From Acidobacteriota bacterium (GTDB lineage: Bacteria; Zixibacteria; MSB-5A5; GN15; FEB-12): a stretch of 64,000 nt of DNA. Position 1 is the first letter of the stretch. Every line of letters starts with the position of its first letter. The notes beneath the pieces are model-generated. The model saw only the letters and a program-made list of their open reading frames with translations, did not search any database and was not told the DNA's origin. The position numbers were made by a program, and so were the translations under genes. The DNA is taken from contig DATKXK010000011.1 in assembly GCA_035529075.1 (NCBI GenBank), forward strand, positions 1 through 64,000. Reading direction: 5' to 3'. This document shows positions 2,265-40,162 of this stretch, piece after piece.

Positions 2265-2316
2265 GGAGTAGGTTGGTATGAAAAAAGTTGATTGTAACAT
2301 ATACGGAGGTGCCGCA

Positions 2317-5300
2317 GTGCGGTTTAACAGTAAGTACCTCAGGACGAGTTTATTTCCGGGACTTGTCTTCCTGATAGTGCTGACGTGGTCATCCTCTGCC
2401 TTCGCACAGGGCTCGATTTTCGGCGGCGTCAGCAACTCCGATGCCTCGACTCCGACCAACGGGGAGATCAGCTTCGTCGGCTTCCTCGATGACACCGACG
2501 AGGAGATCAGGATCGAGACCTCGGATGGGGCAGGGTACGACAACGGGAACTGGTTTGATGATTTCCAGAACTATCTGACCGAGGCCCCGTTCAACCCGTA
2601 CGACTACTACTTCTACAATGTGGTCAACGGGGAGGGATATCACCTGTCGGGGTTGATTCCCAACAACTCCTTCCAGCAGGAAGACGTGACGCTGGCGCCC
2701 GACGGCTGGCCGGCCATGCCGGTCGGTCTGACCGGCAGTGCGCTCTCGTCCTCTCGTGTTCTGGTAGAGTGGAACGGCGTACCCGGACTGACCTACCACG
2801 TCTACCGCCGTCTGTCCAGCTCGAACGGCTCGTTCTTCAGGCTTGACAATGCCGCCGGAGATCTGGCCGATCCGGGCGTGACGGACAGCTTCTTTGTGGA
2901 CAACACGGTTGACGGCGTCAGTTCATATGACTACTTCATCATTGCAGAGAACGCCTCGGCCGGCTATTCGCCGCACTCGGCCTTAATCGTGATAAACTCG
3001 GCGAGCCCCGTCGCTCCCGCCATTGCGTCTGTTGACCCGGACAACGGGCCGGCGGTCGGCGGCACGCCTTTCAACGTCTACGGCAGCGGGTTCGACCCGG
3101 GCGGCGTTTCCGTCCAGATCGGCACCTCCACTCCCGTCGCCGGGACGGTCATCTCGCCTTACCACGTCACGGCCACCACGGCGCCCGGCACTATCGGTGC
3201 CGCCGACGTCACCGTTACCAATGATGCCTCCAGTCTGATTTCGAATGCCCTCGCCGGGGCATTTACATACAACGCCAACGCCGTGCCGGTCCTGGCCGCA
3301 ATCGGCCCCGAGTCGATCGACGAAGGCCAGTTGCTGTCGTTCGGCGTTTCGGCATCCGATCCCGACGGGACAATCCCGGTGCTTACGACCTCGGCCCCGC
3401 CGACCGGCGCCTCGTTTACGGATAACCTGGACGGCACCGGCACGTTTACCTGGACGCCCGATTTCACGCAGTCGGGCGACTACTTCGTGACGTTCTACGC
3501 CACGGACGACAGTCTGGCCGTCGACTCGGAAATTGTGACCATCACGGTCAACCACGTCAACCTGGCACCGGTGCTGGCGGCTATCGGCGGCCGGACGGTT
3601 GACGAGGGCCAGCCCCTGACGATTGGCGTTGCCACGACCGATGCCGACGGCACGATTCCGGTACTGACGACCTCGGCTTTACCGACCGGGGCAACATTCA
3701 CGGATAATCTCGACGGTACCGGGACGTTCAACTGGACGCCGGATTTCACGCAGTCCCGCGACCATTTTGTCACGTTCTACGCTACAGATGACAGCGCGGC
3801 TGCTGACTCTGAGATTGTTACGATCACGGTCAACCAGGTGAACCTGGCCCCGGTGCTTGCGGCTATCGGTGCCAAGGCGGTTGCCGAGGACCAGTTGCTG
3901 ACGTTCGGTGTCTCTGCGACCGATGCCGACGGCACGATTCCGGTGCTGACGACTTCGACTTTACCGACCGGGGCAACATTCACGGATAATCTCGACGGGA
4001 CAGGGACGTTCAACTGGACGCCTGATTTCACTCAGTCCCGCGACCATTTTGTCACGTTCTATGCCACTGACGACAGTGCTGTCGTGGACTCTGAAGTCGT
4101 GACGATCACGGTCGGCCAGGTGAACGTGCCGCCGGTGCTTGCGGCCATTGGCGCCCGGACGATTGACGAGGGTCAGATCCTGGCGTTCGGTGTTTCGGCA
4201 ACGGATGCCGACGGTATAATTCCGGTGCTGACAACCTCGGCTCTTCCGACCGGCGCCTCATTTACAGACAATCTTGACGGGACCGGTACGTTCAGCTGGA
4301 CGCCTGACTATTCTCAGTCGGGCGACCACTTTGTAACGTTCTACGCCACGGACGACAGTGCGGCGGTGGATTCGGAGATCGTGACTATTACGGTTAACCA
4401 GGTCAACCTGCCGCCGGAGCTTGCGGTCATCGGCGCCCAGGTGGTCGACGAGGGTCAGTTGCTGACGTTCGGTGTGTCGGCGACCGATCCTGACGCGACG
4501 ATCCCGGTGCTGACGACTTCGACGCTTCCGGCCGGTGCCCTGTTTGCGGATAATCTCGACGGCACCGGCACGTTTAGCTGGACGCCCGATTTCACCCAGT
4601 CCGGGCCGTACGACATTACATTCTACGCTACTGATGACAGCCTGGTCGTGGATTCCGAGTTGGTGATCGTCACCGTCAATCACGTGAATCTGCCGCCGGA
4701 GCTTGCTCTTATTGGTCCGCAGGCGGTCGCCGAGGGCGAGTTGCTGGCGTTCGTGACGTCGGCTTCGGACCCCGACGGCGATATACCGGTGATGACCAGC
4801 ACGGCTTTGCCGGGCACGGCAACCTATATTGACAACGGCGACGGTACCGGCGCATTCAACTGGCAGACCACCTTCGCCGACTCCGGCTCCTACACGGTGA
4901 CGTTTTACGCGACCGATGCCGTTGATCCGCTTGCCGTTGATTCCGAGGTGGTGACAATAAGTATTGGCGAGGTGGGCAACCACTCGCCGGTCCTGACCCC
5001 TATTGCCGACACTACCGTCGCGGAAGGCTCTAACCTGGCTTTCACGGTCACGGCGTCGGATTCCGATCTTGAGATTCCGTCACTTTCGGCCTCCGGCCTG
5101 CCGGCCAACGCCACCTTTACGGACAACCTTGACGGTACCGGCCTGTTCGACTTCAACCCGGATCTCACGCAATCAGGCGTTTATCCGGTCGTCTTCAAGG
5201 CCGTCGACGCCGCGCTCGAGGTCGACTCGGCAGTCGTACAGATCACCGTCACGGAGACGAATCAGCTTCCGGTGCTGGCCGCGATCGGCCCCCGGACGGT

Positions 5301-8300
5301 TCTCGAGAACGACACCCTGAGATTCCTCGTCAGTGCCACCGACGGAGACGGCACGGTGCCGCTCCTGACGACCGGTGTTCTGCCCGCCGGGGCGGTGTTC
5401 ACTGACAGCCTTAACGGCAGCGGTTTGTTTGAGTGGGTGCCTGATTTCACGCAGGCCGCACCATACGACGTGATGTTCTACGCTACTGACGCCGTTTACG
5501 CGACTGACATTGATTCAGAGCTTGTTGTCGTAACCGTCGACGAGGCGGGTAACCAGCCGCCGGTGCTGGCGGCGATAGGGCCGCAGACGGTGGCCGAGGG
5601 CGACAGCCTGATTCTTACTATTACCGCGACCGATCCGGACGGGATTCCGCCGACTATGTTGGCTCTGGATGTCCCGGCTAACGCCACCTTCCTGGACAAC
5701 GGCGACGGCACCGGCTTGTTCGAGTTCGGGCCGGACTTCTACCAGTCCGGACCGTACTCGGTGACTTTCATCGCCGATGACGGCCTGCTGGCCGACTCCG
5801 AGGTGGTCGATATCACCGTCAACGAGGTTGGCAACGTGCCGCCGGTCTTTGATCCCATCGCCGATACCACGGTGGCTGAAGGAGCGACCCTGGTCATGAC
5901 CGTCAGCGCGGTTGACCCCGACGGCGGCACTATCTTCCCCGCCCTGTCGGTCAGTACCGCCCTGAACAATTACACCTTTGTGGACAACCATGACGGCACC
6001 GGAGCCTTTACTTACTCTCCCGACTTCGTGAGCGCCGGTGCAGATTCCGTGTTCTTCTTTGCCGTCGACTACGGGACTCCGCAGCAGAGTTCATCGGTCG
6101 GCATCGAGATCACGACCGCCGATGTCAATCAGCCGCCCGTGTGGGCCGAAGCCGGTCCGTTCGGCGTCTCCATCGGCGAAACCCTCGTGTTTACCGTGAG
6201 CGCTTCCGATACCACGGACCCGATTACGATACACCGTCTTTTCCTCTCGGTGCTGTCCACTCCGCCCAACGCCTCGTTTGCGGACAACGCGGACGGAACC
6301 GGAACCTTCACGTTCGCCCCGGACGCCTCGCAGGCGGGGCTGCTAACGGTCACCTTCCTTGCCGTGGATCTGGGCATTCCGATGCAGTCGGCGTCGCTGG
6401 CCGTGGACATTACGGTCGCGGTGGAGAACATTCCGCCCATACTGGATTCGATCGGTCCGCAGACGGTGGTCGAGGGTGACATTCTCCTGGTCAACGTGTC
6501 GGCCGCCGATCCGGACGGCCCGCCGCCGCAATTGCTCGCCGATAAGATGCCGAACAACTCCAGTTTCGACGATAACGGTGACGGCACGGGTGTCTTTACC
6601 TTCTTCCCGAACTACGTGCAAGCCGGTCTGGCCAGCGTGACGATAAAGGCCTACGACGGCTTTGCAATCGATAAAGAAGTTATCCTGATTCAGATATACG
6701 AGGCCGGCGACCAGGCTCCGGTGTTTGACTCCGTGCCGTCGGCGTCGGTCACTGAAGGCGAAACGGCGACGCTTGTCATCACCGCCTACGACCCGGACGA
6801 GATAGGTGTCAGTCTCTCCGCTGACGATGCCACCATGCCCGAGTTTGCCTCGTTCTCGGACGACGGTGGCGGTGTCGGTACCTTCACCCTGACGCCGTTG
6901 TTTGCCGATGCCGGCACGTACCCGATTGACGTGATCGCGGATGACGGCAGCATGGCCGATACCGTTACGGTCACCGTCACCGTCATTGAGGCCGGCAACC
7001 AGCATCCGTTCCTCGATCCAATAACCGCCGAGCAGACCATCCCTGAGAAGGCGACGGTGGCCTTTACCGTGACCGCCTACGACCTGGATGAGACCTTCCC
7101 CATCCTGTCGACCTCGCTGCTTCCGGCCAACGCCACGTTCACCGACAACAATGACGGCTCCGGTGACTTCTCCTTCACGCCCGACTTCGATCAGGAGGGC
7201 GTGCACGAAATCACCTTCTACGCCACCGATAACATCGAGACTGATTCGGCGCTGGTGACTATCACGGTCACGGACAATAACCAATTGCCGTTCGTTTACC
7301 CGACCGGCGGCCGGACCCTCTACGAAGGCGACACCCTCATCTACGAGGTTACGTCGTTCGATGCCGACGGCTCGACACCCTTTGTGGATGCGTTCCTGTC
7401 CGGTACGGCGGATTCGTTGCCGCCGAACATGACGTTTGTCGACAATCGGGACCTGACCGGTACCCTGACGTTTATGCCGGACTACCTGCAGGGCGGCCCG
7501 GCCAGCAACCCGGAGCTGTATAATATCGTGTTCAGCGTTGCTGACGAGCGGTATCCCACCGTGATCCAGACCTCCGGCACGGTGACCTTCCAGGTCATTG
7601 ACCGTAACGCGCCTCCGGAAATCGCACTGCCTGACGGCCCCGGCCCCTATTCCGTGACGGAGGGAGCCACCCTCTCCTTTACCGTCGGGGCCACTGATCT
7701 CGATAGTTCGATGGATCCGTTGATTTTCGCCACCGACATACCGCCAAACGCCACGTTTGAGGGCACTTCGAGCATTAAGGAGTTCGTGTTCACTCCGGAT
7801 TACACTCAGGCGGGCACCTATTTCGTGACGTTCTGGGCCTATGACGATGATGGTGACCTTGACACGGAGGTTGTGCAGATCGACGTGCTCGAAGCCGGGA
7901 ACCAGGCCCCGGTCTTCACGTCCGTGCTCGAAGAGTTCAGAAATGTGCCGGTCAACACCCTGTCTCAGATTGTCGTGACCGCCGTCGATCCTGACCTGGA
8001 TCCGGTGATACTGACGGCCGAGCCGATATGGGTGAACATGTACGCATCCTTTGTCGATGCCGGCAACGGCACCGGCACCTACTCCGTCATGCCTGATCCG
8101 CTCGACGTCGATTCCGTTTACCCGGTCAGTTTTGTGGTCACTGATCCTTCCGGTCTGACCGATACGATCACCACCAGCCTGAGGGTAGTGACGGTGCTCA
8201 GAGGCGACCTTGATGACAACAGCACCTATACGATGAACGACCTGGCCTGGCTGATCGCCTACCTGTTCCGGGATGGCCCGGTGCCGGCCACCGTGGAGGC

Positions 8301-8394
8301 GGCGGACGTTGACGGTGACGGCGACGTCAACGTCGGGGATGTCACCTACCTTATTAAATTCCTCTACTACTACGGTCCGGCGCCACCGAACTAA
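2317..8394 (+). CDS. Giant secreted Ig/cadherin-repeat protein with C-terminal dockerin
   Basis: I chose GTG 2317 because GGAGG at 2305-2309 sits 7 bp before it and the product then begins with a compact signal peptide (LFPGLVFLIVLTWSSSAFAQ). The in-frame ATG 2278 has only a weak site and would add 13 residues. Domain order: signal peptide, a roughly 240-residue N-terminal region with an FnIII-like part, an IPT/TIG-like domain (ASVDPDNGPAVGGTPFNVYG), about 17 Ig/cadherin-like units of 90-100 residues (each with an xEGxxLxFxVxAxDxD start and an FxxDxxDGTGxFxxxPD core), then a dockerin-like tail with two EF-hand-type loops (DLDDNSTYTMNDLAWLIAYL and DVDGDGDVNVGDVTYLIKFL). The calcium-rich repeats suggest a long rod on the cell surface. 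The dockerin suggests docking to a cohesin-bearing partner; a cohesin-like protein is encoded at 37.5 kb. Ligand unknown. Confidence 0.9.
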   Translation: MRFNSKYLRTSLFPGLVFLIVLTWSSSAFAQGSIFGGVSNSDASTPTNGEISFVGFLDDTDEEIRIETSDGAGYDNGNWFDDFQNYLTEAPFNPYDYYFYNVVNGEGYHLSGLIPNNSFQQEDVTLAPDGWPAMPVGLTGSALSSSRVLVEWNGVPGLTYHVYRRLSSSNGSFFRLDNAAGDLADPGVTDSFFVDNTVDGVSSYDYFIIAENASAGYSPHSALIVINSASPVAPAIASVDPDNGPAVGGTPFNVYGSGFDPGGVSVQIGTSTPVAGTVISPYHVTATTAPGTIGAADVTVTNDASSLISNALAGAFTYNANAVPVLAAIGPESIDEGQLLSFGVSASDPDGTIPVLTTSAPPTGASFTDNLDGTGTFTWTPDFTQSGDYFVTFYATDDSLAVDSEIVTITVNHVNLAPVLAAIGGRTVDEGQPLTIGVATTDADGTIPVLTTSALPTGATFTDNLDGTGTFNWTPDFTQSRDHFVTFYATDDSAAADSEIVTITVNQVNLAPVLAAIGAKAVAEDQLLTFGVSATDADGTIPVLTTSTLPTGATFTDNLDGTGTFNWTPDFTQSRDHFVTFYATDDSAVVDSEVVTITVGQVNVPPVLAAIGARTIDEGQILAFGVSATDADGIIPVLTTSALPTGASFTDNLDGTGTFSWTPDYSQSGDHFVTFYATDDSAAVDSEIVTITVNQVNLPPELAVIGAQVVDEGQLLTFGVSATDPDATIPVLTTSTLPAGALFADNLDGTGTFSWTPDFTQSGPYDITFYATDDSLVVDSELVIVTVNHVNLPPELALIGPQAVAEGELLAFVTSASDPDGDIPVMTSTALPGTATYIDNGDGTGAFNWQTTFADSGSYTVTFYATDAVDPLAVDSEVVTISIGEVGNHSPVLTPIADTTVAEGSNLAFTVTASDSDLEIPSLSASGLPANATFTDNLDGTGLFDFNPDLTQSGVYPVVFKAVDAALEVDSAVVQITVTETNQLPVLAAIGPRTVLENDTLRFLVSATDGDGTVPLLTTGVLPAGAVFTDSLNGSGLFEWVPDFTQAAPYDVMFYATDAVYATDIDSELVVVTVDEAGNQPPVLAAIGPQTVAEGDSLILTITATDPDGIPPTMLALDVPANATFLDNGDGTGLFEFGPDFYQSGPYSVTFIADDGLLADSEVVDITVNEVGNVPPVFDPIADTTVAEGATLVMTVSAVDPDGGTIFPALSVSTALNNYTFVDNHDGTGAFTYSPDFVSAGADSVFFFAVDYGTPQQSSSVGIEITTADVNQPPVWAEAGPFGVSIGETLVFTVSASDTTDPITIHRLFLSVLSTPPNASFADNADGTGTFTFAPDASQAGLLTVTFLAVDLGIPMQSASLAVDITVAVENIPPILDSIGPQTVVEGDILLVNVSAADPDGPPPQLLADKMPNNSSFDDNGDGTGVFTFFPNYVQAGLASVTIKAYDGFAIDKEVILIQIYEAGDQAPVFDSVPSASVTEGETATLVITAYDPDEIGVSLSADDATMPEFASFSDDGGGVGTFTLTPLFADAGTYPIDVIADDGSMADTVTVTVTVIEAGNQHPFLDPITAEQTIPEKATVAFTVTAYDLDETFPILSTSLLPANATFTDNNDGSGDFSFTPDFDQEGVHEITFYATDNIETDSALVTITVTDNNQLPFVYPTGGRTLYEGDTLIYEVTSFDADGSTPFVDAFLSGTADSLPPNMTFVDNRDLTGTLTFMPDYLQGGPASNPELYNIVFSVADERYPTVIQTSGTVTFQVIDRNAPPEIALPDGPGPYSVTEGATLSFTVGATDLDSSMDPLIFATDIPPNATFEGTSSIKEFVFTPDYTQAGTYFVTFWAYDDDGDLDTEVVQIDVLEAGNQAPVFTSVLEEFRNVPVNTLSQIVVTAVDPDLDPVILTAEPIWVNMYASFVDAGNGTGTYSVMPDPLDVDSVYPVSFVVTDPSGLTDTITTSLRVVTVLRGDLDDNSTYTMNDLAWLIAYLFRDGPVPATVEAADVDGDGDVNVGDVTYLIKFLYYYGPAPPN
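3286..4977 (+). repeat. Six in-phase 282-bp coding repeats inside the giant gene
   Basis: Units start at 3286, 3568, 3850, 4132, 4414 and 4696, exactly 282 bp apart. They are highly similar to each other and to the units at 3-850, while the 11 later units in the gene are much more diverged and vary in length. This points to recent duplication or homogenisation of one block. Confidence 0.8.
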
Positions 8395-8700: not shown

Positions 8701-8846
8701 TCGCCGGAGAAGCAATGTCTGCTTGAGGCAGGCCAATACCGCATGCGGTACGTGAGGAGGTGAGGCTTACTGAGACTAAGCTAAATGACGCTGAAATGGA
8801 TTTTCAACTGAATGACGATGTGAATATGGATGGAGGCTCAGATCAC

Positions 8847-9725
8847 ATGAAGCTTAAATTGTTAATGGTCTTTTTTTCCATTTTGTTGCTAGCCGGAGCG
8901 GTTTCCGCCCAGGTAACGAGTGTGTCGATTGATACAGTGACTAATCTCTGGAACGTCGACACGCTTAAAGCCGGCGAAACCCACAAGGTATACATCCATC
9001 TGACCAACTTCAGTAGCTTCAGCTACAACGTCTCCAACGGTTTTGTCGTCTACTCGCCTGATGGCGCCGGTTGGTCCGGTCTTGCAGGCGGCTTTCTCCC
9101 GACGCTGACCAAGGCTGATAATTTCGATGTCGTTTACTCAATCAACGTCTTCGATACTGATGGTAGCAGGGACTCGGTCGGTTTCGCCGGCGCCGCGGGG
9201 GCGGATGGGGACGCGCTTTTTATAACCTTCGACGACACCGCGTGGACAGTGACCTTTACTACAAGCATCGAGGATACTACCAAGACAATCTGCATCGACA
9301 GTTGTGGTTTTGATCCGACTAACACATGGTCCTGGGCGCCTCGCCCCTCGGGCACGAAGATCAAACCGGACTGGTCGGGGCCGTATTGCTGGACGCTGTA
9401 CAACGTTGTCACGGATGTACCTGACGGCGCGGCACCGCTGCCGGACAAATTCGCGCTGGCTCAGAACTATCCCAACCCCTTCAACCCCAAGACGGCCATA
9501 AAGTTTGACGTGCCGTATGAGACCCACGTCAAGCTGACCGTTTTCAACATGCTGGGCCAGGAGGTCATTACCCTGGTGGACGAGGTAGTGCCGCCGCAAT
9601 TCGGCAAGCAGGTTGAATGGGACGGCCGTTCGGCTAGCGGCCGAACAGTGGCTTCAGGTGTGTATTTCTACAAGCTGGAGACCGACTCGTTCGTGCAGAC
9701 CAGAAAGATGGCATTGCTCAAGTAA
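8847..9725 (+). CDS. Secreted protein with FlgD-like (type IX-type) C-terminal sorting domain
   Basis: ATG 8847 is preceded by GGAGG at 8832-8836 and starts a clean signal peptide (MKLKLLMVFFSILLLAGAVSAQ). Upstream in-frame starts would add a hydrophilic 29-residue extension. Mature residues 23 to about 200 form a beta-rich domain with no family I recognise; it has one tight cysteine pair (TICIDSCGF). The last 85 residues are a FlgD-Ig-like sorting domain: LAQNYPNPFNP, VFNMLGQEV, SGVYFYKLETDSF, ending KMALLK. Such tails direct outer-membrane export and anchoring in FCB-group bacteria. The gene has its own promoter and terminator, so it is probably monocistronic. The passenger's function is unknown. 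Confidence 0.88.
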   Translation: MKLKLLMVFFSILLLAGAVSAQVTSVSIDTVTNLWNVDTLKAGETHKVYIHLTNFSSFSYNVSNGFVVYSPDGAGWSGLAGGFLPTLTKADNFDVVYSINVFDTDGSRDSVGFAGAAGADGDALFITFDDTAWTVTFTTSIEDTTKTICIDSCGFDPTNTWSWAPRPSGTKIKPDWSGPYCWTLYNVVTDVPDGAAPLPDKFALAQNYPNPFNPKTAIKFDVPYETHVKLTVFNMLGQEVITLVDEVVPPQFGKQVEWDGRSASGRTVASGVYFYKLETDSFVQTRKMALLK

Positions 9726-36716: not shown

Positions 36717-37070
36717 GCCGGTCTGCCTATGCTCCCCGGCGTTTGTCAGTGTCGCCGCCAGCCGGTGTGTTCCCTGTATCCATCTTTGATTTCTCGATCC
36801 GATCCGCCATCCAGCCGTCGCCTGCTGAGCACATGGTGCAATTGATGCTCCCGGGAGCATGCTGTCTATTGGGAGCAGGACGCCCTGGTTGTGCCGGGCT
36901 TGGAATAAGGTGTCACCGGCCACCGCCCGCAGTGATTAGAGACGGGTTGGCGGGGCTGACAGGAGAGCAGATCAGTGGCAGGACAACCGCGTATCGGGGA
37001 GCCCGGCCGGCAGGATTATTTCTACGGAGTGTAGTATATGGACATTCAGGGGTTTTTGGCAAAAAAACTC
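36717..37070. other. Long gene-free intergenic region
   Basis: No credible gene is seen. It contains a perfect 16-bp palindrome at 36845-36860 (ATGCTCCCGGGAGCAT) and, at its end, an A7 tract just before the downstream -35 box that could act as an UP element. Confidence 0.5.
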
Positions 37071-37099
37071 TTGACAAAATACGGTCTTGGGGTTATACT
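37071..37099 (+). promoter_or_regulatory. Consensus sigma-70 promoter of the cohesin/dockerin gene
   Basis: TTGACA (37071-37076), a 17-bp spacer and TATACT (37094-37099), preceded by AAAAAAA at 37061-37067. It is one of the two or three closest matches to consensus in the window and implies strong expression. Confidence 0.88.
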
Positions 37100-37105
37100 C
37101 GAGTT

Positions 37106-37492
37106 GTCTAGGGAAAATAGTTGTGTTAAACGCGCTTCTGTTTTGCGTACATCGCACCTTTGGTAACTTTAAGACAAAGTTAAAGTTACTCTGATTCAAG
37201 CTCTTCTTTCAGGATCGTTCAAAAGATTTGAAGGTCTTACCCGGGTTTTTCTATCTGGGTGGATCCACGATCTTTCATAGAGATCTCCTATCCAATTTTG
37301 AATTCGACTTCTCATGCATGTCATTCTGGAGCAGCTGTTCCGGTTTGACAGAGATTTCGGATCTGAATTGGCCAGTGCCGATGCTCCCTTTTGTGAGGGA
37401 GAATTGGTACGGGAAGGTAAGAGTTCGGGAAAGCGATTTCCTGGCAATTACCTAAAACTTTGGTGACCTTTACTGGATTAAAGGAGCATTGA
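37106..37492 (+). promoter_or_regulatory. Long structured 5' leader
   Basis: About 390 nt separate the promoter from the start codon. The region is less GC-rich than its surroundings. A perfect 10-bp hairpin lies at 37163-37189 (GTAACTTTAA, 7-nt loop, TTAAAGTTAC) and a 6-bp hairpin at 37384-37401 (CTCCCT/AGGGAG). No leader peptide stands out. It may stabilise the mRNA or act as a control element. Confidence 0.45.
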
Positions 37493-40102
37493 ATGATGCA
37501 AAAAAGAACCCTATATTCTTTGCTACTCATCTCCTTTATAGTGGCATTTGCGGCGTCTGTGTCGTTTGCCAACACGGTCACTATTGAGTCGAAATCAAAT
37601 ATCTTACGTTGTGACAATCAGGCGTCCAACGTGGATATTGAAGTCACGTCGCCGGACGGCGTCGACGCAATCGAATTTGTATTCGAGATTGTCGAAGGCC
37701 CGGAAGGCGGTTTCTTAACGGTGACCGATGTTGTATGGGATGTTGATCTGCTCAACCTGATGGATCGTATCGTCGATCTGAGTCAGGTCGACGGAGTATC
37801 CCCGGATTATATCCGCTTTGCCGCTATGAAGCTGCAGCCGACTGACGCGCCGCTTCCGGCGGGTTCGTATACTGTAGCCCAGATTAAATTCACCACCAAC
37901 GACAATTGCGGTGACGATGTCGCCATCGACAACACGGTGTTCCCCTACGTGATAGGCGGAATCACCACCCAGTTTGTCGATGCGGCCACTAATTTACAAG
38001 TCGCAGTGTCGGTCACGCCAGCTACCATCGAAATCGTCAATCAGCTTCCTGAGATTGCCGATATCGATGATGTCACGTTGGAGTGGGGTGATTTCTACTC
38101 CGGCCTGGCGACGGCCACCGATCCGGACGGGGACAACAGCTGTGAAGAGCTGAAGTACTACAAGGTGTCCGGACCGGATGACTTGGTCGTCGGCGAGACC
38201 AGTGGTGTCATCACGTGGCTCACGACCGGCGCTGACGTGTGTGAGCACGTCGTGCAGGTCAAGGTGGTGGATGCGTGTGGAGCGGAGGATGTTACGTCCT
38301 TCACAATCTGCGTCCACAACTTCGCACCTATCATCACCTGCCCGGATGATCAGATGATCTTCTTCGGCGAGGCTCTCCAGACGCAGGTGACGGCTACAGA
38401 TGACGAGGACCCGCATGGTCCCGGCCCGTATCCTCTGATCTACAAGCTGGTTTCGTTCGATGGCCCGGGGATGGTTATGGTCGACCCCGGCAACGGCGAG
38501 ATCGTTTGGCAGACTGAGACAACCGCTAACTACACCGGTGTCTTCAACATCTGTGTTGAGGTAACGGACAGCGCTAACGTCTGCGTGGATTGCAGCCCGA
38601 AGAACGCTGACACCTGCTGCTTCCAGGTTGAGGTGGTCTCAATGGCCATCGCTATTGAGAAGCAGCACGGCGACGGTATGGGCGTGCCTCAGGGTCAGGA
38701 GACCACGGTTGAAGTCACGATGCTTCCTATGAACTTCAACAACTATCCGATTGGTGGCTTCAATTTCCTGATTCAGTACGACGCGACCGCGCTGAGCTTC
38801 CTGTACGCGGAAGAGGGCGAATTCCTGCTCGACTGCGAATGGGAGTACTTCACCTACCGGTTTGGCCCGGACGGCAACTGCGGTGATGGGTGCCCGAGCG
38901 GCTTGTTACGCGTCGTGGCTATAGCAGAGACTAACAACGGTGCTATTCATCCGGAATGCTTCGTAAACGACGGGTCGGTTACTGACGCTGATCAGCTCGT
39001 TATCTTGCACTTCATGGTCTCGAACGACCGGCTTCTGGAGTGCCAGTTCGTGCCGATCAAGTTCTTCTGGATTGAGTGCGGTGACAATACGCTCTCGTCC
39101 GTATCCGGTGACACGCTGCTGATCTCGCGCGATGTCTATGACTACATCGGCAGCGGCGGCATTGACACCTGGTATCAGATCGACTCTCTCGATTACGAGC
39201 TCCCGGGTATCTGGGGCGCCAACTACACCTGCGACGTCAGCGATAAGGGCTACCCGATTCGCTGGGCTGACTTCTGGAACGGCGGTGTTGACATTATTTG
39301 CAGTAAGGACATTGATGCACCTGGCGACGTGAACGCCAATGGCTGGGCATTTGAGATCGCGGACGCGGTCATGTTCAGCAACTACTTCGTCGATGGTCTC
39401 GGTGCCTTCCTGGGTCATGTCGATGCCTCTATTGCCGCCACCGACGTCAACAAGGACGGTATCACCCTGTCAATAGCTGACCTGGTGTACCTGATCCGTG
39501 TCGTTGTCGGCGATGCTCAACCGTATCCGAAGGAAGTCATTCCTGAGAACGTCCGCTACACCCATGATGCCGGTGTGGTGACCACCCAGGGTGACGTCGT
39601 TATCGGCGCTGCGTATCTTGTTGTTTCAGGTAACGTCTCGCCTGAGCTGTTGGCTGACAACATGGAGATGGCGTATCGTTTCGACGGCCAGAATACCCGC
39701 ATCATCGTGACGCCGCGGGTTGATAATGTCGTTACTGAAGGCTTCACGGGCGAGTTCCTGGGCGGCATTGACGGTGACATTCTTACCATTGAAATGGCCA
39801 CCGTTGCTGCTCTGCCGATCGTGGCGACCAACGTCCCGACGCATTACGGCCTGAGCCAGAACTACCCGAACCCGTTCAACCCGACTACCAAGATCGACCT
39901 CGCGACTCCGGAGGCTGGTTCTTACAGCGTGACCATCTATAACATTCAGGGTCAGGTTGTGGACGTCATCTCCGGTGTGGCCGACGCTCCTGGTGACTAC
40001 ATCGTTGAGTGGGATGCTTCGAACAATGCGTCCGGCGTGTACCTGTACAAGCTGGAAATCAACGCATTTACAAGCGTCAAGAAGATGGTACTGCTCAAGT
40101 AA
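37493..40102 (+). CDS. Cohesin-like, dockerin and FlgD-tail surface protein
   Basis: GGAG lies 7 bp before ATG 37493. Signal peptide (SLLLISFIVAFAASVSFA), then a cohesin-like beta domain (about 30-180), two Ig/cadherin-like domains (about 185-375), a second cohesin-like domain (about 385-560; VTMLPMNFNNYPIGGFNFLI), a dockerin-like pair of EF loops (DVNANGWAFEIADAVMF, DVNKDGITLSIADLVYLI), and a C-terminal FlgD-type sorting domain (LSQNYPNPFNPTTKI ... GVYLYKLE, ending KMVLLK). Cysteine is unusually frequent (over 20), suggesting disulphides. Strong promoter, long leader and strong terminator point to an abundant monocistronic surface protein. Domain names are from motif pattern, not a profile search. 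Confidence 0.85.
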   Translation: MMQKRTLYSLLLISFIVAFAASVSFANTVTIESKSNILRCDNQASNVDIEVTSPDGVDAIEFVFEIVEGPEGGFLTVTDVVWDVDLLNLMDRIVDLSQVDGVSPDYIRFAAMKLQPTDAPLPAGSYTVAQIKFTTNDNCGDDVAIDNTVFPYVIGGITTQFVDAATNLQVAVSVTPATIEIVNQLPEIADIDDVTLEWGDFYSGLATATDPDGDNSCEELKYYKVSGPDDLVVGETSGVITWLTTGADVCEHVVQVKVVDACGAEDVTSFTICVHNFAPIITCPDDQMIFFGEALQTQVTATDDEDPHGPGPYPLIYKLVSFDGPGMVMVDPGNGEIVWQTETTANYTGVFNICVEVTDSANVCVDCSPKNADTCCFQVEVVSMAIAIEKQHGDGMGVPQGQETTVEVTMLPMNFNNYPIGGFNFLIQYDATALSFLYAEEGEFLLDCEWEYFTYRFGPDGNCGDGCPSGLLRVVAIAETNNGAIHPECFVNDGSVTDADQLVILHFMVSNDRLLECQFVPIKFFWIECGDNTLSSVSGDTLLISRDVYDYIGSGGIDTWYQIDSLDYELPGIWGANYTCDVSDKGYPIRWADFWNGGVDIICSKDIDAPGDVNANGWAFEIADAVMFSNYFVDGLGAFLGHVDASIAATDVNKDGITLSIADLVYLIRVVVGDAQPYPKEVIPENVRYTHDAGVVTTQGDVVIGAAYLVVSGNVSPELLADNMEMAYRFDGQNTRIIVTPRVDNVVTEGFTGEFLGGIDGDILTIEMATVAALPIVATNVPTHYGLSQNYPNPFNPTTKIDLATPEAGSYSVTIYNIQGQVVDVISGVADAPGDYIVEWDASNNASGVYLYKLEINAFTSVKKMVLLK

Positions 40103-40131
40103 ATTGTTAGCTTGAGTTTTACCCTACAGAT

Positions 40132-40162
40132 AAGAGCCCCGCTCCGGCGGGGCTCTTTTTTT
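40132..40162 (+). terminator. Intrinsic terminator
   Basis: AAGAGCCCCGC/GCGGGGCTCTT stem with TCCG loop and a T7 run. Confidence 0.93.

Follow-up and report, generated by a model that had tools for sequence, protein, structure and literature searches.

A gene encoding a predicted exported protein of 869 amino acids lies on the forward strand at 37493-40102 of the window, the whole 64,000-nucleotide stretch of DNA that was analysed. The gene stands behind a near-consensus promoter and a leader of about 390 nucleotides, and it ends in an intrinsic terminator, whose strength had been claimed in an earlier note and is borne out by its 11-pair stem. The translated reading frame contains 20 cysteines, where more than 20 had been reported. 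The features of the locus, together with a second protein of the window that is taken up below, are as follows.

2278-8394, + strand: rod protein of 2038 aa with many Ig/cadherin-like repeats and a canonical C-terminal Dockerin_1 domain (over cut-off, 9.3e-7)
37020-37036, + strand: dyad operator TTCTACGGAGTGTAGTA (consensus TWCTACNNNNNRTMGTA), candidate activator site (12 of 12 positions matched)
37071-37099, + strand: sigma-70-type promoter, TTGACA-17-TATACT (11 of 12 positions matched)
37103-37194, + strand: 5' domain of the leader (model R1), comprising the P1 hairpin, a conserved GCACCUU and the P2 hairpin (20 pairs; 88.9 bits and one copy in the source genome)
37106-37492, + strand: structured 5' leader RNA of about 387 nt (z = -7.54; covariation; no Rfam match)
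37367-37420, + strand: P4 element, in which GCCGAU pairs with a downstream AUUGGU, with an inner hairpin and an overlapping P4a helix (double changes, 26 sequences)
37420-37466, + strand: P5 long hairpin, GGUAA...UUACC (double changes in 12 of 12 pairs)
37467-37487, + strand: P6 hairpin, CCUUUA/UAAAGG, covering the Shine-Dalgarno sequence AAAGGAG (89% of cells paired, 26 sequences)
37493-40102, + strand: predicted T9SS-exported protein, 869 aa, with a type A tail (orthologues 45-59% identical over full length)
37493-37570, + strand: signal peptide, aa 1-26, MMQKRTLYSLLL... (unusually strong conservation among orthologues)
37571-38044, + strand: N-terminal cohesin-like module, aa 27-184 (profile A10 and hhalign)
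38045-38629, + strand: two Ig/cadherin-like modules, aa 185-379 (He_PIG and modelled beta strands)
38630-39295, + strand: second cohesin module, aa 380-601, with a Cys-rich insertion and 8 conserved Cys (Foldseek, Cys columns, profile A11)
39302-39520, + strand: pair of dockerin-like EF repeats with 13-residue loops, aa 604-676 (repeat profile; modelled helices)
39521-39849, + strand: beta module between the dockerin-like pair and the tail (modelled strands)
39863-40099, + strand: type IX (type A) C-terminal sorting domain, aa 791-869 (PF18962, 4e-10; TIGR04183, 2.5e-10)
40132-40157, + strand: intrinsic terminator (11-pair stem, T tail)

The exported protein and its modules

The FlgD-type, type IX-like tail described in the earlier note is readily recognised. 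The sorting domain passes the curated cut-offs of both type A families, PF18962 (40.3 bits, cut-off 27) and TIGR04183 (40.2, cut-off 23), and a Pfam search finds FlgD_ig in the tail with E = 3.7e-6. The source genome (3.04 Mb, 100% complete) encodes SprA (578 bits), the PorU sortase (632 bits) and several PorV proteins over cut-off, and about 40 other places in it match the type IX tail. With its signal peptide, its sorting domain over cut-off and SprA, PorU and PorV in the genome, the protein resembles known type A cargo of the type IX secretion system (T9SS; PF18962/TIGR04183), but here the cargo is a cohesin/Ig rod without a recognised enzyme domain. No enzyme or carbohydrate-binding module (CBM) was matched in the 869-aa protein by the Pfam search, nor is it a cellulosome component in the sense of a multi-cohesin scaffoldin with enzymes or CBMs. 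Elsewhere in the window, a short reading frame (8760-9725, + strand) carries the same kind of T9SS tail at its end (9408-9722).

Searches with single sequences against Pfam, NCBIfam and the PDB were too weak for cohesins and dockerins, and the assignments rely on homologue profiles and folds instead. The claim of cohesin-like modules finds no backing in the protein's own Pfam score for PF00963 (single-sequence search, 12.6 bits, cut-off 24.1); it is upheld by the fold and by the relatives. PF00963 is matched at E<=0.01 by 21 of 45 full-length homologues, and, at 1.1e-14, by a paralogue from the source genome whose modules come in the same order (L031:4479-6959). The family profile of the second module, A11, reaches solved cohesins (E ~1e-3). 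An AlphaFold model of residues 380-676 (89 homologues; pLDDT 91.7, pTM 0.85) was compared with the PDB in Foldseek: every one of its 50 best matches is a cohesin, with target TM up to 0.81 and with 2xdh included. When the full-length model served as the query, cadherin-like rods swamped the result. By its modelled fold, the second module is a cohesin, and the family alignment places an insertion and eight conserved cysteine columns in it. The reading of the N-terminal module as cohesin-like has moderate support from sequence profiles: profile A10 reaches cohesin 5m2s_A with E = 0.0094, and hhalign aligns the module to the second one with E = 3e-4 and a probability of 40%. He_PIG matches the first Ig/cadherin-like module in the Pfam search at 3.1e-4, which is under its cut-off. 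In the source genome, three paralogous cohesin/T9SS proteins also stand in a row (C17:33500-44422, L031), one of which lacks cysteine and has two cohesins that pass the Pfam cut-off.

Two EF-type repeats follow the second cohesin, and their loops have 13 residues in all members that were parsed (60 and 63 of 89). The motif is duplicated as in a type I dockerin, but the loops are not of the 12 residues that define the calcium loops of that type. This length is consistent with the sub-cut-off score of the protein for PF00404 (Dockerin_1; E = 0.21, 12.2 bits, cut-off 22.9). Dockerin_1 is found at E<=0.01 in one of the 45 full-length homologues, and the dockerin-like repeat profile reaches dockerins weakly (E = 0.011). 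Of the dockerin-like EF pair that had been proposed, the duplicated repeats and the modelled helices thus hold good, while the PF00404 cut-off and the 12-residue loops do not; with such non-canonical loops, neither calcium binding nor docking can be taken for granted.

With few exceptions, namely the first copies in the C15 paralogue and in L114, which lack the pair, the second cohesin and the pair occur fused. The cohesin-dockerin unit occurs in 60 of 61 relatives, commonly at about 10 places per genome and at up to 26. The direct fusion in nearly all relatives, together with one confident model (pTM 0.85), favours a fixed intramolecular unit, which on the modelled structure is at least as likely as a free docking pair. 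The same unit ends two giant paralogues of 3084 and 3435 aa (L032:1145-10399 and L034:1355-11662), both of which consist of Cys-rich tandem repeats and close in cohesin, dockerin and T9SS tail.

It had also been proposed that the cohesin and dockerin of separate molecules bind each other, which would give a head-to-tail surface lattice or capture the rod protein encoded at 2278-8394. The cohesin fold of the second module speaks for this idea, as do the 12 cohesin places (6 of them over cut-off) and 39 dockerin places of the source genome, which suggest a wider cohesin/dockerin network with more docking pairs than the one described. The rod itself is present at 2.3 kb as claimed, with its terminal dockerin over cut-off, though with 2038 residues rather than 2025; no T9SS tail was matched in it. 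However, the second cohesin and the dockerin-like pair come fused in nearly all cases, a single confident model spans both, and the pair's 13-residue loops differ from the canonical 12-residue loops of the rod's dockerin. Docking between molecules, whether as lattice or as capture, is an unlikely arrangement.

Noncellulosomal cohesin and dockerin proteins have been described in archaea, including single ANME proteins that hold a dockerin and several cohesins (PMC9012536). The protein studied here shares with those of Archaeoglobus fulgidus and ANME (PMC9012536) the presence of cohesin and dockerin modules in organisms without known cellulosomes, and the noncellulosomal cohesin of A. fulgidus (PDB 2xdh) is among the top structural matches of the second module. 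It differs from the archaeal proteins in that a Cys-rich cohesin is fused to a pair with 13-residue loops, in that its sequence predicts T9SS export, and in that the arrangement is found in almost all relatives. A literature search of partial coverage returned nothing tying Zixibacteria to dockerins, T9SS or the leader RNA described below.

The promoter region and the leader RNA

The near-perfect, strong promoter reported earlier is confirmed by the 11 matched positions at 37071-37099, though it is part of a larger conserved control region. In orthologous loci, a near-consensus TTGAC promoter is kept immediately 5' of the leader, 366-439 nt before the ATG. Upstream of it lies the dyad operator, matched at no fewer than 11 of 12 positions in 22 of 34 orthologous loci and at 10 or more in 26, while it is weak or absent in 8. 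By chance, such a site would be expected in 0.7% of 95-nt stretches. Nearly all sites lie at one of two distances before the start of the -35 element, 51 nt or 40-42 nt, which are one helical turn apart. A genome holds 0-4 exact operator sites, and the one found in many of them is that at the surface-protein gene. This rarity and location suggest, from the distribution of the motif, a dedicated activator acting at the operator. The source genome holds a second exact match (C11:82907), which has no promoter at the right distance.

The stretch of about 390 nt between promoter and ATG, passed over in the earlier note, is a conserved, structured and probably cis-regulatory leader RNA. When the window's own leader is folded alone, it reaches z = -7.54, and none of the shuffles is as stable. 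In the 5' domain, with 20 pairs compared over 17 sequences, 91.9% of cells are paired, against 40-49% when the pairing is slid, and none of 500 shuffles matches its covariation on any measure, in a test that is blind to kinship, with all sequences from one order. The 3' half (26 sequences, 33 pairs) shows changes on both sides in 27 pairs and 79% of cells paired versus 36-51% when slid; again no shuffle in 500 equals its covariation, by the same kinship-blind test and within one order. The helices P4a and P4b cross to form a pseudoknot, with double changes in 5 of 5 and 6 of 6 pairs, respectively (26 sequences); the window's own leader retains just three P4a pairs. The P6 hairpin over the ribosome-binding site (RBS) shows no double changes among the 26 sequences, and several genomes carry changes in its 5' arm. 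In the 5' domain, the unpaired stretches GUCUAGGGA and GCACCUU are strongly conserved.

For the middle of the leader, RNAalifold on a plain MAFFT alignment of the whole leader was of no use, as that part was lost. A blind search for pseudoknots proved too permissive when set against simple shuffles (85% versus 50%), and covariation counts from the alignment were used instead. Several alternative stretches of the leader are complementary to the RBS; long-range pairing of GCACCUU or AAGCUCUU with it was considered and set aside, as it is not consistently kept across loci. In the Rfam search, a tRNA alone reaches the gathering score in the window, hits to the leader are at chance level, and none has E<=1 in seven other leader loci. 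The leader thus matches no known RNA family, and it probably controls the amount of protein made. Over the first codons (37493-37525) and in orthologues (MMQKRTLYSLLL), nucleotide conservation exceeds what a signal peptide needs, so the RNA structure may run on into the coding region.

Model R1 is found in 43 of 61 relatives and in 51 of 132 genomes of the phylum, all from one order and usually in single copy, the relatives being metagenome assemblies, mostly of Candidatus Zixiibacteriota, that may be misassigned. As most of the named relatives carry that label, the window very likely comes from this uncultured phylum too. Each of the 34 leaders inspected is followed directly by the same orthologue, which was assigned by BLAST in 33 cases and, in the last, cut by a contig end, by its signal peptide. 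Full-length orthologues of the 869-aa protein, at 45-59% identity, occur in many genera across Zixibacteria. A few genomes have two copies of the gene that share one leader type. In several genomes (G001, G003, G007, G056 and G085; loci L201-L210), contigs break inside the leader and the upstream flanks differ, which points to two gene copies sharing promoter and leader; phase variation was considered for these breaks, and two copies with a common promoter and leader are the simpler explanation.

How the leader may act

Genes for S-layer proteins combine a strong promoter, a long 5' leader and a terminator in a single-gene transcript for a major surface protein. The locus is like them in its promoter, long leader, terminator and single gene; the differences are that no S-layer domain is recognised here and that the leader has much more structure than a plain stabilising hairpin. 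The leader could be a static stabiliser of an abundant mRNA that senses nothing, as the near-consensus promoter, the terminator, the single gene and the very stable fold would lead one to expect. The conserved unpaired nucleotides and the pseudoknot, however, surpass the needs of simple stabilising hairpins, and this role is best regarded as a real possibility that stops short of being the probable one.

Alternatively, the leader could be a true switch, in which binding of a small molecule, an ion or a protein alters access to the RBS of the surface-protein gene. It resembles riboswitches and other cis-regulatory leader RNAs of Rfam in its several conserved helices, its pseudoknot and its RBS hairpin. 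The unpaired and conserved GUCUAGGGA and GCACCUU would fit such a role, as would the alternative stretches complementary to the RBS, but those pairings are inconsistently kept. The leader differs from the Rfam classes in matching no family and in being tied to one surface-protein gene only, so that no pathway hints at a ligand. A switch is a tentative proposal. Equally tentative is its fuller form, in which a new Zixibacteria-specific class of cis-acting switch would sense a ligand, an ion or the state of secretion, act through the pseudoknot-linked RBS hairpin and so set how much of one widespread T9SS surface protein is made. That the leader is simply a slowly diverging untranslated region kept by common descent, as the origin of every sequence in one order might suggest, is highly improbable given the compensatory changes at most pairs, the 0 of 500 shuffles, the 36-51% pairing when slid and the z of -7.54.

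The account that probably holds is that of a T9SS-delivered envelope protein, widespread in Zixibacteria, with dedicated control through both its transcription and its leader RNA. A regulator would bind the dyad operator and activate the near-consensus promoter. The transcript would begin with the folded leader of about 390 nt, with the 5' hairpin domain first, then the pseudoknot and the long hairpin, and the RBS hairpin last. Since that terminal hairpin covers the RBS, the leader would act in cis on translation, and probably on the life of the mRNA as well. The signal peptide would take the protein across the inner membrane, and the T9SS would export it and attach it through its type A tail, displaying at the surface a rod in which two modules are cohesin-like and two Ig-like. 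In this rod, the distal cohesin and the dockerin-like pair may pack into one disulphide-rich, calcium-dependent unit. The protein may be abundant. Nothing in its codon usage points to high expression, but this says little on abundance, as even ribosomal proteins score about as an average gene does here.

The fused cohesin-dockerin unit is a testable case of such modules beyond cellulosomes, and the leader is a defined RNA for in vitro probing; if it is a switch, it would represent a new class. For the Zixibacteria themselves, the wide conservation of a control region for a single gene, with operator, promoter and 390-nt leader, suggests that the surface protein is of particular importance.
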